Assembly: GCF_024436435.1 (NCBI RefSeq)
Contig: NZ_JAFMZP010000004.1
Location: 496,001-560,000 of the forward strand
Source of the DNA: Desertivirga xinjiangensis
GTDB lineage: Bacteria > Bacteroidota > Bacteroidia > Sphingobacteriales > Sphingobacteriaceae
Direction: 5' to 3'
Length of the DNA stretch: 64,000 nucleotides
Below the pieces are notes generated by a model. The model did no database searches. It saw only the letters and a program-made list of their open reading frames with translations, and was not told the DNA's origin. A program made the position numbers and the translations under genes. Below are positions 14,682-20,741 of this stretch, piece by piece; positions within the stretch are counted from its first letter, which is position 1; each line of letters opens with the position of its first letter.

Positions 14682-16355
14682 ATGAATAAGATTTTAATGA
14701 ACATCAAAACCCTAATACTACTTATAATCAATAGTTTGATCGTACTTGTGATCGCTTTGTTGTCTTTTTTATTTTATAAACAGTTTTCGAATGTTTTGAA
14801 CGATCGTATTCTAATGCAATTGAATTCAATCGAAACCCTCGAAAGTATTCAGATAGAGAATCTGATAAAGACAAAATGGAAAAGTTTTGCCTCATCTAAG
14901 GTGTATAGCGAAAACATTGACAGTACCACTTTCAAACTTCCGGATAGTATAAAAGAGATCGATGGCATCCACGATTTTACGCCATATCATAAGCATAAAA
15001 AAGCTACCATAGGTTTTGTTTTAAACACCAGAGCAGGGAGGAAGATTAGATTTATAGATTACAGCGATATACAAAACATTCTTCTTGAACGAACCGGTAT
15101 GGGCGAGAGTGGAGAGACCTATCTTGTTGGCGAAGATTTTCGAATGCGTTCAGAATCTCGCTTCTTTCCTGATAAAAAGCCTTACGAGATATTTGTAAAA
15201 ACGCAGGGTGTTATAAGCGCGTTAAAAGGGGTAAATGGAAGAGGCATCTTAGTGGATTACAGAGGCATTCCAGTTTATAGTGTCTACAGTCTTATTCAAA
15301 TTTCAAATTTAAAGCTGGTTATTCTCTCCGAAATTGATGTAAGTGAGGTTACAAAGCCTTTGGAAGAATTGAAGATAAGGCTTGCGAAACTAACTTTTGT
15401 TATTTTCTTAGTTGCCGTCACCCTATCTCTTTTCCTGACACGAATCATTATTAATCCAATAAAAAATATGCGAAATAGCCTGAGAGTAATGGCTAAAGGC
15501 AACTACGATCAGACCATCGAATATAAAAGAAGTTCAAATGAAATAAAAGAAATGTTCGATGCGCTGTCGAACCTAAAAGCTTCTTTACAAGGAGCTGTAA
15601 AATTTTCTGAGGCGATCGGCAATATGGACCTAAATACAAACTATAAACCAAATAGTGCTCATGATGTCCTTGGGAAGAGTCTTCTAACGATGAGAAATAA
15701 GCTTATCGATTTTAAAAACCAGGAAGATAATACCAGAACAATGGCAAAGCGGCTGTTGGTGGACGGTTTGGAAAACGAAAGGCGTCGGCTTGCGAGAGAA
15801 CTTCATGATGGTGTGGGCCCTTATTTAACTTCTTTGAAGCACTATATTGAAAATAACGTTGAAAATGAGTCGAAGAAAACGGAAATGAAGAAAATAGTGG
15901 ATGAAACCATTTCCGAGGTCAGATCAATGTCGAACGCATTGATGCCCGCTTCAATAGATGATTTTGGAATTGGTGTAACACTAACAAATTACATCGAAAA
16001 CTTAAACAGATCAATCAGTATAAGTATTGAGTATGAGGATCTTACAAAGCAGGAAAACTCAAATATTACTGATCATCAGGCAATCAATCTTTTTAGAATA
16101 AGCCAGGAGCTGCTAAATAATTCATTAAAACATTCTAAAGCAAAAAACATACGAATTACACTTTCAGAATTTGATGAGTTTATTTCACTTTTCTATTTTG
16201 ATGATGGTATTGGTTTTGATATTAGCACTGTCAGGCTAGGGTCTGGAATCACAAACATTAAAGAGCGCGTAGATATTTGCAATGGTAAAATTACGATCAA
16301 TTCTTTACCCGGAAATACAACTTTCGAAATAGAACTACCTGTTGATTATGAATGA
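14682..16355 (+). CDS. NarX-type membrane sensor histidine kinase
   Basis: 557 residues. A transmembrane helix lies at about 8-32, followed by an extracytoplasmic domain of about 200 residues (MGESGETYLVGEDFRMRSES is Cache-like), a second helix at about 237-254, and HAMP. The HisKA_3 dimerisation segment is NERRRLARELHDGVGP with phospho-acceptor H375. The ATPase domain contains ISQELLNNSLKHSKA and DDGIGFD. It overlaps the response-regulator gene by 8 bases, so the two are translationally coupled. The signal is unknown. Its place after the galactan operon may be coincidental. Confidence 0.93.
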   Translation: MNKILMNIKTLILLIINSLIVLVIALLSFLFYKQFSNVLNDRILMQLNSIETLESIQIENLIKTKWKSFASSKVYSENIDSTTFKLPDSIKEIDGIHDFTPYHKHKKATIGFVLNTRAGRKIRFIDYSDIQNILLERTGMGESGETYLVGEDFRMRSESRFFPDKKPYEIFVKTQGVISALKGVNGRGILVDYRGIPVYSVYSLIQISNLKLVILSEIDVSEVTKPLEELKIRLAKLTFVIFLVAVTLSLFLTRIIINPIKNMRNSLRVMAKGNYDQTIEYKRSSNEIKEMFDALSNLKASLQGAVKFSEAIGNMDLNTNYKPNSAHDVLGKSLLTMRNKLIDFKNQEDNTRTMAKRLLVDGLENERRRLARELHDGVGPYLTSLKHYIENNVENESKKTEMKKIVDETISEVRSMSNALMPASIDDFGIGVTLTNYIENLNRSISISIEYEDLTKQENSNITDHQAINLFRISQELLNNSLKHSKAKNIRITLSEFDEFISLFYFDDGIGFDISTVRLGSGITNIKERVDICNGKITINSLPGNTTFEIELPVDYE

Positions 16356-16980
16356 GATAAAATTAATAATTGCTGACGACCATGATCTTTTTAGAAACGG
16401 AATTGCAGAATTACTCAAAAAGCATGGCGAAATTAAAATTGTTGAAAGTGTTGCGGATGGCTTTGAATTTTTGAAGGTAATAAAAGAGGGGGTTGAGGCG
16501 GATATAGTTTTGCTGGATCTTACTATGCCAAAAATGGATGGTTTTGAGGTTTTAAAGGAATTAAAAAACTTCGAGGCTAAAATAAAACCCATTGTAATTT
16601 CTATGCATAGTGCTGGTAACTACATTGCAAAATGTGCTAAAATGGGTGCATATGGTTACTTGTTGAAGAATACCGATGAATCAGAACTGATTTTGGCCAT
16701 CAGGACTGTTCATAGAGGAAAGAAGTATTTTAGTGCTGAAATCTCTGAGAAAATGATAAACTTTATGTCAACCCAAAGCGTCAGCGATGATGTTTTATCA
16801 AAAAAAGAGACTGAGGTTTTGGGACTAATCTCCAAGGGCTTTACCACAAAAGAAATTGCTGCTAAATTATTTGTGAGTACACGAACGATAGAAACTCATC
16901 GAAACAATATTCTTAAGAAACTTGAGGTAAAAAATACTGCCGAGCTTATTAAAAAAGCCACTGAAATAAATCTGATCTAA
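16348..16980 (+). CDS. NarL/LuxR-family response regulator
   Basis: The ATG at 16348 lies inside the kinase stop region; an upstream TTG in frame at 16342 is less likely. The protein is 210 residues. The receiver domain has the acidic pocket ADDHD at residues 9-13 and phospho-acceptor D57 in VLLDLTMPKMDG. The C-terminal LuxR HTH contains LSKKETEVLGLISKGFTTKE and STRTIETHRNNILKKL. It is the cognate partner of the kinase encoded immediately upstream. Its target may be the small repeat protein gene downstream, which has a perfect palindrome in its upstream region. Confidence 0.95.
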   Translation: MNEIKLIIADDHDLFRNGIAELLKKHGEIKIVESVADGFEFLKVIKEGVEADIVLLDLTMPKMDGFEVLKELKNFEAKIKPIVISMHSAGNYIAKCAKMGAYGYLLKNTDESELILAIRTVHRGKKYFSAEISEKMINFMSTQSVSDDVLSKKETEVLGLISKGFTTKEIAAKLFVSTRTIETHRNNILKKLEVKNTAELIKKATEINLI

Positions 16981-16995
16981 ATTTCTAATCAATCT

Positions 16996-17015
16996 TATCC
17001 GTATAAATACGGATA
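16996..17015. promoter_or_regulatory. Perfect palindrome, candidate response-regulator operator
   Basis: TATCCGTAT, two bases, then ATACGGATA: nine-base arms with no mismatch. It sits 15 bases after the response-regulator stop and 46 bases before the -7 element of the next gene. This is a good position for an activator site. The same half-site ATACGGATA occurs once more at 20761-20769, upstream of the PAS kinase, which may be chance. Confidence 0.45.
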
Positions 17016-17060
17016 CAAATAGCGTAAATTCATATAATACCTAAGGGCCTTGATCGACTG

Positions 17061-17068
17061 TAAATTTG
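17061..17068 (+). promoter_or_regulatory. -7 element TAAATTTG of the repeat-protein gene
   Basis: An exact TAnnTTTG match 22 bases before the ATG at 17091. No TTTG -33 box is present at the usual distance, which fits an activator-dependent promoter. Confidence 0.5.
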
Positions 17069-17090
17069 TTACAACAAATAAAAAACAGTC

Positions 17091-17411
17091 ATGAAAAAAG
17101 CGTTAGTAATTTTAGGGTTGTTTGTCGTTTCATTTGGTGCGATGGCACAAGAGAAAAGTCAGGTAAAACAAAGTGATCTTAAAGGTCCTGAATATAAAAA
17201 CTATAAGATCTGGATGCACAAAGCTGTGCCGACCAAAATACAATCAGCCGCCACTGTAGAAACCCTCCAGGGGCCTGCATATAAGAACCGCCAGCCGGGA
17301 AGAGATGCTTCAAAAGTAAAAGCTTTAGTGAGCACTGTTGGTAGTGAGCAGCAGAAATTTAAAGGCCCTGCCTATAAAAACTTCAATCATCATACTGGAA
17401 GACCAAATTAA
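17091..17411 (+). CDS. Small secreted protein with three K/Q-G-P-x-Y-K-N repeats
   Basis: 106 residues with a clear signal peptide (MKKALVILGLFVVSFGAMAQ). The mature part carries KGPEYKN at 31-37, QGPAYKN at 60-66 and KGPAYKN at 91-97, spaced 29 and 31 residues apart. The linkers between them are basic and polar. No catalytic motif or cysteine is visible. It has its own -7 element, a palindrome upstream and a strong terminator downstream, so it is a dedicated single-gene unit right after a kinase/regulator pair. Function unknown; a secreted or cell-envelope ligand or signal is one possibility. Confidence 0.8.
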   Translation: MKKALVILGLFVVSFGAMAQEKSQVKQSDLKGPEYKNYKIWMHKAVPTKIQSAATVETLQGPAYKNRQPGRDASKVKALVSTVGSEQQKFKGPAYKNFNHHTGRPN

Positions 17412-17436: not shown

Positions 17437-17520
<84 letters not shown>

Positions 17521-17660
17521 AGTTTAAAGAGCATTCGAACTCATCAAAACATGATGGTATGCTGTTTAATTTTCATTTTAAAAACACACTAACCATTTCA
17601 AACTATCCCGGTGCTTCTCGATGTGGGCTTAACGAATTAGGCACACACCAAGCCTCAACA

Positions 17661-18028
17661 ATGGTAGCAGATACAGTGATTTTTATTGAACACCTTCGTG
17701 CTAAAGACAAACTATCAACTACTCTCTACGAGATATCAGAAAAGACCGCTATTTATATCTCTGCTGTAACAGTGTGGGCTTTATATTTGAGCTACTAAGA
17801 CAAAGAAAAGGATGTTATGAATATAACTGAAAATTTCACTGTACTTCCATTCACTGATGCCGTGCTCGGAAAGCAGCTGAACTGTACCATCAACTTAGAT
17901 TAAGCAATCAAATGATTGAGTTTAGAGACATATTTATTGCAGCTACCTGTATGGTTCACGAACTTCCTATTGTTACCCTCAACAAAAAACATTTTAAGTG
18001 TATTGATGGATTGAAAATTCTGCGCTAA
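17661..18028 (+). pseudogene. VapC-type PIN-domain toxin, decayed
   Basis: Frame one from 17661 reads VADTVIFIEHLRAKDKLSTT and AIYISAVTVWALYL, then meets an in-frame TAA at 17796. The same frame continues as DKEKDVMNITENFTVLPF. After a shift near 17885 the reading becomes LSNQMIEFRDIFIAATC and HELPIVTLNKKHFK. Together this is a full PIN domain with the acidic residues of VADT, IEHL and FRDIF still visible. One stop and one frameshift make it non-functional. No intact antitoxin gene is seen beside it. Confidence 0.8.
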
Positions 18029-18087
18029 GATATTTAGTACCTGACTGCGTTTTAAAGAATGCGGCCTTCTTTCTTGCTCTGTGGGTG

Positions 18088-18422: not shown

Positions 18423-20741
18423 ATGAAAACTGAAATTCTGGACTTGGGTCTTATAGACAAAAAGCTGATCCCAGCAAAATCAGAGCTATCTTTTCAGCCG
18501 TTTGTTGCTTTTTTACAAAGCCTAATTGACGATCAGCCACTAAAGGAGGACCTTTTCAGAAGTTTTATCTTAAAGTTTGAAAGAGCTTTTACGGGACGGG
18601 AGAGCATAACAATTGAAGAGACTGCGGAATTTGAAGAGCTCCTTGAAATGATTTATATGTTCGTAACTCCCATTATTTCCAAAGAAAGCAAACATGTGTG
18701 GGCGTTGAGTACCCCTGTTCCAGGAGAAATTTTTTATAGCACCGATGCTTTTTATAGTTTCTATATTGGTGATAACTCAAATGCGCCAATTGGCGATTTT
18801 GAAACCAAGAACATCCTGTCTGGTAAAGAAAAAGTTTTTTTTTACCAGCTAATTTTACGTAGATTCTATAATATTGATTCGAGTGTTTACACCGATAGCC
18901 ACATTCAAGGTTTAAATCCAAAGGACAATAACCCTGTATTTTATAGAATTCACATTGATACACGCTTCCTAAATATTTCTTACTCCGGCGACCTCCCACA
19001 GTTAGATACACAATTAATAGAGACCTGGCTTCTTGATCCAAAGGGAGAGAAGTACCTTGAAAACTTATTACCTCTTTCGAATTTCCAGATTAAGGGTTTT
19101 TCCATTCTTGAATTTACCGATGTTACAGAAGAACATGCCATCGAAAACCTCAAGAATATCATTGTTGACCACAAAGAAGAAATTTTTAGCGAAGGAATAA
19201 ATGAAACACTTCAATCATTGGTTGGAAAGAGAAATTTAAGATTTGGGATATTGCCTTTTATTAAACTAAACAATCGGACAATATATCTGAGCGAGAGCTC
19301 CACTAGTAGCATTCTTATGAACGCGGCGATTAAATACCGGGTTAAGCAAGATATTTATCACCAGCTGGTAGAACAGTTTGAGAATAATCCGGAAGCAATC
19401 CTTCATAATAATATTTCTTCGAGCCAATTTACTGAAGAACCTTTGATAAAAATTCTTAAGTATGCGGGAATAGAATCATTTGCCTTACTTGCTGTAGTGT
19501 TCCTAAAAAAAGTTGTTGGGGTACTGGAAGTGTATTCCCCAGATAAGGTATTTATTGACAAGCTTGTACTTTCTAAGCTACAAGGAGCAATGCCCTATAT
19601 CGGACAGTTAGTTAAACATATTTCCGACAATTTCGCAAACTCAATTGAACAGGCAGTAAGTGATAATTTCACTTCAATTAAATCTCCCGTAAAATGGAAA
19701 TTTAAAGAGGTGGTAGGCACATATTTGAACGCGCCTGATATTTCTACCGCTGAGATAGGCCGGGTAAAGTTCGAAAAACTCTACCCATTTTATGGCGCAA
19801 TTGATATTAGGCAGTCGTCTATAGAAAGAAATAATGCCGTATTAGAAGATATTACAGATCAAATAGAGTTACTCACAAAGATATTGAATGATCCGCTAAC
19901 ATCTTTGAATGATCCCTTAGCTGAAGTTTTGCTGATGAATAAGCAAAAATGGTTAGGCTATTTTGACGACTTTAAAGAAACAGGTGATGAAATTACTTTC
20001 AATAGTGTAGTTCAGGAGGAGGTTGAGCCCTTTCTTATAGAGGCTGCAGAAGCTTCCCTTGAGGCTAATGAATTGATAAAACCCTATCTACAGTCTATCT
20101 CGGAAACTGAAGGAGCGTTCCACAAACACCGCAGGGAACTTGAATCATCCATGCATATAATAAATAGTAGTATTAATCAGCATCTCACGACCTACCAGAA
20201 AGAGCTTCAAAATTTCTTTCCTCATTACTTTGACAGGTTTAGAACAGATGGAGTAGAATATGACATTTATTTAGGGCAATCTATTGCACCCTACAGAACC
20301 TTTAGCATGGAACATGTGAAACATATGCGGTTGTGGCAGCTAAAAAGCATGGCTGAGATCGGGTTAATTACCCGGAACCTTCGATCTAAAATGTTAAAAG
20401 ATCTGCAAACAACCCAGCTTATCTTTATTCATTCATCGCCTATTACTATCGGGTTTCGCAATGACGAAAAACGTTTCGATGTAGAAGGTGGATCAAGTAT
20501 CCGCTACGAAGTAGTGAAAAAACGAATTGATAAAGTTCTCATAAAAAGCACTCACGAACGTTTAACTCAGCCTGATAAAATTGCCATGGTATATTTCAGT
20601 CAATCTGAAGAAAATGAATACCTCGAATATATTTTGATACTTCAGCAGCAGGGGCTTTTGAAAGATGAACTGGAGTTTTTAGAGTTGGAAGACTTGCAAG
20701 GGGTCCATGGATTGAAAGCTCTCAGGGTGAGGATCAATTAA
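18423..20741 (+). CDS. Large cytoplasmic GAF-domain-type protein
   Basis: 772 residues without signal peptide or obvious membrane helix. The central region (about 330-400; IESFALLAVVFLKKVVGVLE, then VYSP) looks like a GAF fold. The N- and C-terminal parts are helical, with no kinase, cyclase or HTH motif recognised. Proteins of this size and pattern are common beside histidine kinases in Sphingobacteriaceae, and here two PAS kinases follow. It may be a sensory partner of those kinases, but its output is unknown. Confidence 0.55.
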   Translation: MKTEILDLGLIDKKLIPAKSELSFQPFVAFLQSLIDDQPLKEDLFRSFILKFERAFTGRESITIEETAEFEELLEMIYMFVTPIISKESKHVWALSTPVPGEIFYSTDAFYSFYIGDNSNAPIGDFETKNILSGKEKVFFYQLILRRFYNIDSSVYTDSHIQGLNPKDNNPVFYRIHIDTRFLNISYSGDLPQLDTQLIETWLLDPKGEKYLENLLPLSNFQIKGFSILEFTDVTEEHAIENLKNIIVDHKEEIFSEGINETLQSLVGKRNLRFGILPFIKLNNRTIYLSESSTSSILMNAAIKYRVKQDIYHQLVEQFENNPEAILHNNISSSQFTEEPLIKILKYAGIESFALLAVVFLKKVVGVLEVYSPDKVFIDKLVLSKLQGAMPYIGQLVKHISDNFANSIEQAVSDNFTSIKSPVKWKFKEVVGTYLNAPDISTAEIGRVKFEKLYPFYGAIDIRQSSIERNNAVLEDITDQIELLTKILNDPLTSLNDPLAEVLLMNKQKWLGYFDDFKETGDEITFNSVVQEEVEPFLIEAAEASLEANELIKPYLQSISETEGAFHKHRRELESSMHIINSSINQHLTTYQKELQNFFPHYFDRFRTDGVEYDIYLGQSIAPYRTFSMEHVKHMRLWQLKSMAEIGLITRNLRSKMLKDLQTTQLIFIHSSPITIGFRNDEKRFDVEGGSSIRYEVVKKRIDKVLIKSTHERLTQPDKIAMVYFSQSEENEYLEYILILQQQGLLKDELEFLELEDLQGVHGLKALRVRIN

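Follow-up and report, generated by a model that had tools for sequence, protein, structure and literature searches.

In the window, a stretch of 64,000 nucleotides of Desertivirga xinjiangensis DNA, three consecutive genes on the forward strand make up the locus that was analysed. The first (positions 14697–16355) encodes a sensor histidine kinase, in which two transmembrane helices surround a Cache/PAS-type periplasmic domain and are followed by HAMP, HisKA_3 and HATPase_c domains. Its start was picked from the orthologues, and an ATG at 14682 is an alternative. The second gene (16348–16980) overlaps the stop codon of the kinase gene and encodes a NarL/LuxR-type response regulator of 210 amino acids with a receiver domain (Response_reg) and a GerE domain. 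The HisKA_3 and HATPase_c domains of the kinase and both domains of the regulator scored above the curated Pfam cut-offs, which confirmed the kinase/regulator pair that the initial annotation had described upstream of the third gene. The NCBIfam equivalog cut-offs for named NarL-family systems (NarXL, UhpBA, LiaSR, MctSR, and others) were not reached, and the best equivalog matches were those to MctS (105.9 of 700 bits) and MctR (163.8 of 300 bits).

The third gene (17091–17411) starts with an ATG and encodes a predicted exported protein of 106 amino acids, which was characterized from the list of open reading frames, the alignment and its composition. Sequence and homologue alignment revealed three copies of a GPxYKN motif, i.e., KGPEYKN (17181–17201, residues 31–37), QGPAYKN (17268–17288, residues 60–66), and KGPAYKN (17361–17381, residues 91–97), the starts of which are 29 and 31 residues apart. 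When the mature sequence was shuffled 5000 times, three copies were never obtained, and at least two copies were obtained 138 times. On inspection the N-terminus, MKKALVILGLFVVSFGAMAQ, has the appearance of a Sec signal peptide without a lipobox cysteine, which likely finishes with ..GAMAQ, and the protein is probably exported via Sec. The mature protein has a mass of about 9.7 kDa and a pI of about 10, and it lacks cysteine. Thus, the open reading frame and the motif spacing of about 30 residues that had been noted earlier were both found, while secretion was read from the N-terminus. Downstream of the gene lies a terminator-like hairpin, TCCGTAGAG/CTCTACGGA, that is followed by a T-run (17486–17520, forward strand), and a hairpin with a T-rich tail of varying sequence was also found 3′ of the repeat gene in most orthologous loci. 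Between the stop codon and the terminator the window contains a perfect (AC)22.5 dinucleotide array (17440–17484), which is missing from the same place in five related loci that were inspected and could be a length-variable tract. Further downstream, interrupted frames at 17660–18030 (e.g., FIAATCMVHELPIVTLNKKHF) look by eye like what is left of a gene for a PIN-domain protein of the VapC-like kind, and a gene for a 772-residue protein without a Pfam match at E values up to 1 (18423–20741) is followed by two genes for PAS-type kinases.

Database searches did not assign the repeat protein to a known family. Neither Pfam nor NCBIfam yielded a family match at E values up to 1, and a search of PHROGs gave nothing above chance level. 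PADLOC yielded no family for the repeat protein or the kinase; its matches to the regulator were all weak and partial, and the best one covered the DNA-binding domain. No occurrence of the protein in viral contigs could be confirmed, and a plasmid search was without a match. Homology to the CpxP/Spy/ZraP family was not detected, and there was no Pfam match to it at E values up to 1. One sequence match in the PDB, mL100 (E 1.7e-5, with no single stretch passing alone), was judged to be a composition effect of the basic sequence. An AlphaFold2 model based on 25 homologues was of low confidence (pLDDT 55); this fits a disordered protein, while not proving it, and the model was too poor for a structure search.

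Relatives of the repeat protein were searched in the genomes of 84,980 species, and 24 homologous loci were found. The hosts are Desertivirga, Paradesertivirga, Pedobacter, Flavobacterium, Algibacter, Polaribacter, Wenyingzhuangia, Portibacter, and related MAGs. Whole-genome searches added ten further loci, so that, including the window, 35 distinct loci were available. An alignment of 25 homologues revealed that the conserved part of the protein is the motif itself, with eleven invariant residues (G32, P33, K36, and N37 in the first copy, P62, K65, and N66 in the second, G92, Y95, K96, and N97 in the third). The motif was kept in Sphingobacteriaceae, Flavobacteriaceae, and one Saprospirales relative, and the consensus of the fuller module is L(K/T/Q)GPAYKNYKPW. 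Two weak profile matches (G501/L039 and G765/L093, the latter a weak eleventh match in Flavobacterium) turned out on inspection to be different proteins that lack the motif.

In all 35 distinct loci the repeat gene was directly preceded by the genes for the same Cache-type kinase and the same NarL-type regulator, a sharper result than the adjacency to two-component genes that had originally been proposed. In the 24 named loci the upstream pair is on the same strand and consists of a kinase of about 551 amino acids and a regulator of 210 amino acids, and the ten further loci match this arrangement. No other neighbour was common to more than three of the 24 named loci, and beyond the three genes no conserved gene for processing, maturation or export of a precursor was found in them. 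Two checks were independent of this linkage. Among 395 genomes of the phylum strong matches to the sensor (E below 1e-120) occurred in four, the same four contained all strong matches to the repeat protein, and the two genes were adjacent each time. Among 199 Flavobacterium genomes ten had a strong match to the repeat protein; nine of these were read with their flanks and all nine were linked to the kinase and regulator genes, and in the tenth (G654) the operator described below adjoins the repeat gene. The cassette is thus real and conserved, a two-component theme with a dedicated secreted product. A literature search retrieved neither the GPxYKN motif nor the operator, and the three-gene cassette has apparently not been described so far.

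The spacer between the regulator gene and the repeat gene is 110–116 bp long in most loci. In the window it contains a palindrome, ATCCGTATAAATACGGAT (16997–17014, no strand assigned), which was recognized by its conservation and phasing and is proposed as the binding site of the regulator; a second conserved box in the AGCGTAAATTCATATAATACC region (17020–17043, forward strand; TTGGGTAGATTCACATAATCC in Flavobacterium), which emerged from the promoter alignment; and a −7 element, TAAATTTG (17061–17068, forward strand), which was identified by its phasing and the consensus reported earlier (PMC6847099). Together with the terminator-like hairpin and its T's, all three elements that had been assigned to the gene at the outset, i.e., a −7 element of its own, an upstream palindrome and a terminator, are therefore present. 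The operator consensus ATCCGTA-N4-TACGGAT was found with at most one mismatch in 34 of the 35 loci, and in Wenyingzhuangia (L033), the most diverged member, the palindrome is degenerate and the operator is lost. The end of the palindrome is separated from the TAnnTTT(G/A) element by exactly 46 bp in 33 of the 35 loci and by 45 bp in one, while its distance to the regulator stop codon differs between loci by over 200 bp, and the start codon follows the −7 element after 21 to 42 nt. This phasing to the −7 element argues that the palindrome is an activator-type site of the repeat gene promoter; a role as terminator of the regulator gene was rejected because it is promoter-phased and no T-run follows it. 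In Flavobacterium johnsoniae the last base of the −7 element is located at −5 (PMC6847099), and with this geometry transcription is predicted to start at about 17073, with the palindrome centre at about −67. By inspection, no TTTG was found at −33, in keeping with a promoter that depends on an activator.

A pattern search revealed a single exact palindrome in the genome of the window, and the next best site has two mismatches. The latter, the sole other near-match (L098:1501–1518, C11:411156), is situated between a thioredoxin-like gene and the gene after it and is probably due to chance. The sequence ATCCGTAWWWWTACGGAT occurred in exactly the ten Flavobacterium genomes that carry the cassette, once in each; the remaining 189 genomes lacked it, and a reversed control pattern was absent from all 199. 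The cassette loci that were fetched have one operator each, which precedes the repeat gene, and none precedes the kinase gene. This once-per-genome site is the strongest evidence that the regulator, if it binds there as we infer, serves one promoter, where the count refers to visible sites and further targets with degenerate sites are possible. A palindrome that is phased to the promoter and present in a single copy per genome suggests that the regulator has the small protein as its dedicated output.

A second inverted repeat is located at the start codon. Pairing and folding analyses revealed an upstream arm GACTGT (17056–17061) and a downstream arm ACAGTC (17085–17090) that abuts the start codon, both on the forward strand. 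Many Flavobacterium loci have a different pair, CTATTACT/AGTAATAG, in another register with the same pairing at the ATG. Because two registers occur in different lineages, the inverted repeat was tested for each locus separately; RNAalifold, applied to the promoter alignment as a whole, detected no shared structure. The mean pairing score at the start codon of the 35 loci was 15.4, compared with 10.8 for shuffled sequences, and about one third of the loci had nothing notable. Folding with the upstream arm yielded −9.0, −10.0, and −13.7 kcal/mol, and folding without it yielded 0, −2.1, and 0 kcal/mol. Because the upstream arm precedes the predicted transcription start, the hairpin should fold only in read-through mRNA. 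In Bacteroidota, structures at and near the start codon modulate translation (PMC6847099), and therefore the predicted hairpin may block translation of read-through transcripts and hold it off unless the gene's own promoter fires. It is also possible that the inverted repeat is a DNA dyad with another role.

The periplasmic sensor domain of the kinase was modelled with high confidence (pLDDT 88.5). The top structural matches of the model were the sensor domains of chemoreceptors and kinases, namely Tlp1, PctA, CitA, and DcuS (Z about 12–15), and the modelled fold is of the Cache/PAS type. Domains of this type usually bind small molecules, and the Cache domains among solved structures are mostly small-molecule binders. 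The sensors of the window's family and of Flavobacteriaceae are 61–68% identical, apart from a lower value for G112, the start of which is shifted, and thus they likely share a common ligand.

Distant relatives of the cassette were found in another lineage of the phylum. Two loci (G476/L076 and G468/L077) have related kinases (about 30% identity) and regulators (36–38%) in the same order, followed by the palindrome ATCCGTAGAAATACGGAG or ATCCGTACAAATACGGAG and a gene for a small secreted protein. In both loci the palindrome ends 58 bp before TAGTTTTG. The two output proteins, of 146 and 149 amino acids, share about 44% identity with each other and lack the GPxYKN motif; their C-terminal ends look coiled-coil-like. 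Regulator and palindrome have thus remained associated across a long divergence, with a different protein as the output. Two additional loci (L075 and L078) have a related kinase-regulator pair that is directly followed by an ammonium-transporter-like gene, and the palindrome is absent. Genome G476 contains further palindromes, ATCCGTAG-N2-CTACGGA, at L153:4991 and L154:131, upstream of unrelated secreted genes, i.e., a gene the secreted product of which carries a T9SS sorting tail, and a gene for a haem-binding-like lipoprotein that is followed by one for a CHRD-domain protein; possibly this genome has a wider regulon.

The distribution of the cassette is patchy, with 9 clear cassettes in 201 genomes of the family, in addition to the ten in 199 Flavobacterium genomes and the four in 395 genomes of the phylum. 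Between Sphingobacteriaceae, including the window, and Flavobacterium the regulators are 78–82% identical and RpoB 75–77%; between Flavobacterium and Portibacter the values are 81–85% for the regulator, 77–78% for the kinase, and 71% for RpoB. Between orders the identity of the regulator thus exceeds that of RpoB. A maximum-likelihood tree built from kinase and regulator together placed Portibacter with Algibacter at a support of 99/99. Taken together, identities, tree and patchiness indicate that the three genes spread horizontally as one unit.

Several known systems resemble parts of this arrangement. In the ZraS/ZraR/ZraP system and similar ones a kinase, a regulator (NtrC-type in the case of ZraR) and a small periplasmic protein are encoded together, as they are predicted to be here, but the cassette shows neither a zinc motif nor homology. 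Inverted-repeat operators are usual for LuxR-type DNA-binding domains, and the HisKA_3 kinase, the receiver-GerE regulator and the inverted-repeat operator are shared with systems of the NarL/UhpA/LiaR type, from which the cassette differs in its Cache sensor, its single dedicated promoter and its secreted repeat product. Gram-positive agr or com loci also combine genes for a kinase, a regulator and an exported product side by side; in contrast to these, the cassette has no processing exporter or specificity groups, and its sensor is a Cache domain instead of a multi-pass receptor. The two-component pair CpxA/CpxR of E. coli is likewise accompanied by a small exported protein with a basic face, CpxP, the gene of which is controlled by the regulator, as would be the case here, and the small protein may act in the envelope in both systems. 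However, CpxR is of the OmpR type and the cassette regulator of the NarL type, Cpx has more than 100 targets (PMC4160245) while the cassette has one visible site, and CpxP is a helical dimer while the repeat protein is predicted to be disordered with GPxYKN repeats.

These results can be combined into a model in which the inner-membrane kinase would sense a small ligand at the envelope side via its Cache domain and, judging from its family, phosphorylate the NarL-type regulator. The regulator would bind ATCCGTA-N4-TACGGAT and activate the promoter 46 bp downstream, and the output would be a small, strongly basic, apparently disordered repeat protein that is placed in the envelope. The predicted hairpin might cover the start codon in read-through mRNA of the kinase operon, and production of the protein would then depend mainly on its own regulated promoter. 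The three GPxYKN(YKPW) modules might bind a repeated surface component, e.g., peptidoglycan, lipid A or capsule, or might capture the compound that acts as inducer; this is the weakest step of the model. A flexible chain with three cationic-aromatic modules at even spacing would suit multivalent binding to either an envelope surface or the inducer. At the level of sequence the circuit of sensor, regulator, one promoter and one product is well supported, and the envelope-binding role is suggested by charge, repeats and export. For the whole, i.e., a self-contained, horizontally spread two-component cassette with a single output, the repeat protein of which is an envelope-binding effector, the arguments for and against seem evenly balanced.

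Concerning the job of the repeat protein, we infer that a role as effector comes ahead of those as feedback partner of the kinase and as precursor of signalling peptides. A feedback partner would leave the circuit the same, with the repeat protein binding to the periplasmic domain of the kinase and damping or tuning it as CpxP does with CpxA. A periplasmic product that is made under control of the cognate kinase indeed corresponds to the CpxP arrangement, CpxP binds the CpxA sensor domain and inhibits CpxA, with a positively charged surface being implicated (PMC4160245), and the repeat protein is basic and was seen only together with this kinase. Yet in a distance-based test, in which kinase core and regulator were accounted for, the distances of the repeat protein correlated no better with those of the sensor than with those of the kinase core (partial r 0.24 vs. 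0.30), and thus no co-evolution with the sensor beyond the kinase core was detected. Moreover, a circuit with its own brake as the sole visible output would be purposeless, unless the site search missed targets, and this explanation is considered unlikely, while deserving attention. The initial annotation had suggested precursors of signalling peptides or envelope ligands. Of these the envelope ligand is still a possible reading, while the precursor became improbable. Here, the exported protein would be cut near the repeats and the liberated GPxYKN-type peptides would activate the adjacent kinase like an autoinducer. Such a scheme could explain three near-identical modules within one exported protein and the shared locus of kinase, regulator and a product gene that is apparently under the regulator. 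It is made less likely by the absence of a processing, maturation or export gene from the cassette and by the conservation of sensor and motif across orders without specificity groups, and the preference of structurally solved Cache domains for small molecules also speaks against it. A secreted antimicrobial or adhesive, with a cationic aromatic repeat peptide that harms competitors or glues cells and a kinase that detects competitors or surfaces, would be compatible with a small, basic, exported, repeat-bearing protein and with the patchy, horizontally spread cassette, but there is no immunity gene, no dedicated export gene and no PADLOC match, and an outer-membrane export signal was not recognized on inspection, so that this role appears quite improbable. 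That an unrelated small gene is by chance the neighbour of a two-component pair, with the palindrome, located as it is in the spacer that follows the regulator stop codon and precedes the repeat gene, belonging to the regulator terminator, is hardly credible in view of the complete linkage, the matched presence across genomes, the missing T-run and the palindrome spacing, which is fixed to the −7 element and variable to the regulator stop codon.

It is tempting to speculate, with somewhat less assurance than for the model itself, that the locus represents a class of mobile Bacteroidota cassettes with one sensor, one site and one product. In these, kinase, regulator and phased palindrome would constitute a conserved switch that is loaded with differing small secreted proteins, i.e., a GPxYKN repeat protein in Bacteroidia and another protein in a distant lineage, and a start-codon hairpin would block translation of read-through transcripts. 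The repeat proteins constitute a family that none of the searched libraries contains, and they are tied to a specific sensor and promoter by linkage, co-occurrence and the once-per-genome operator. For most NarL-type regulators in Bacteroidota neither the sites nor the targets are known, to our knowledge. The cassette offers a regulator of this type with a site and a target that can both be tested with one reporter. Finally, its inducible promoter, which seemingly moves between orders, could become a practical sensor part once the ligand is found.
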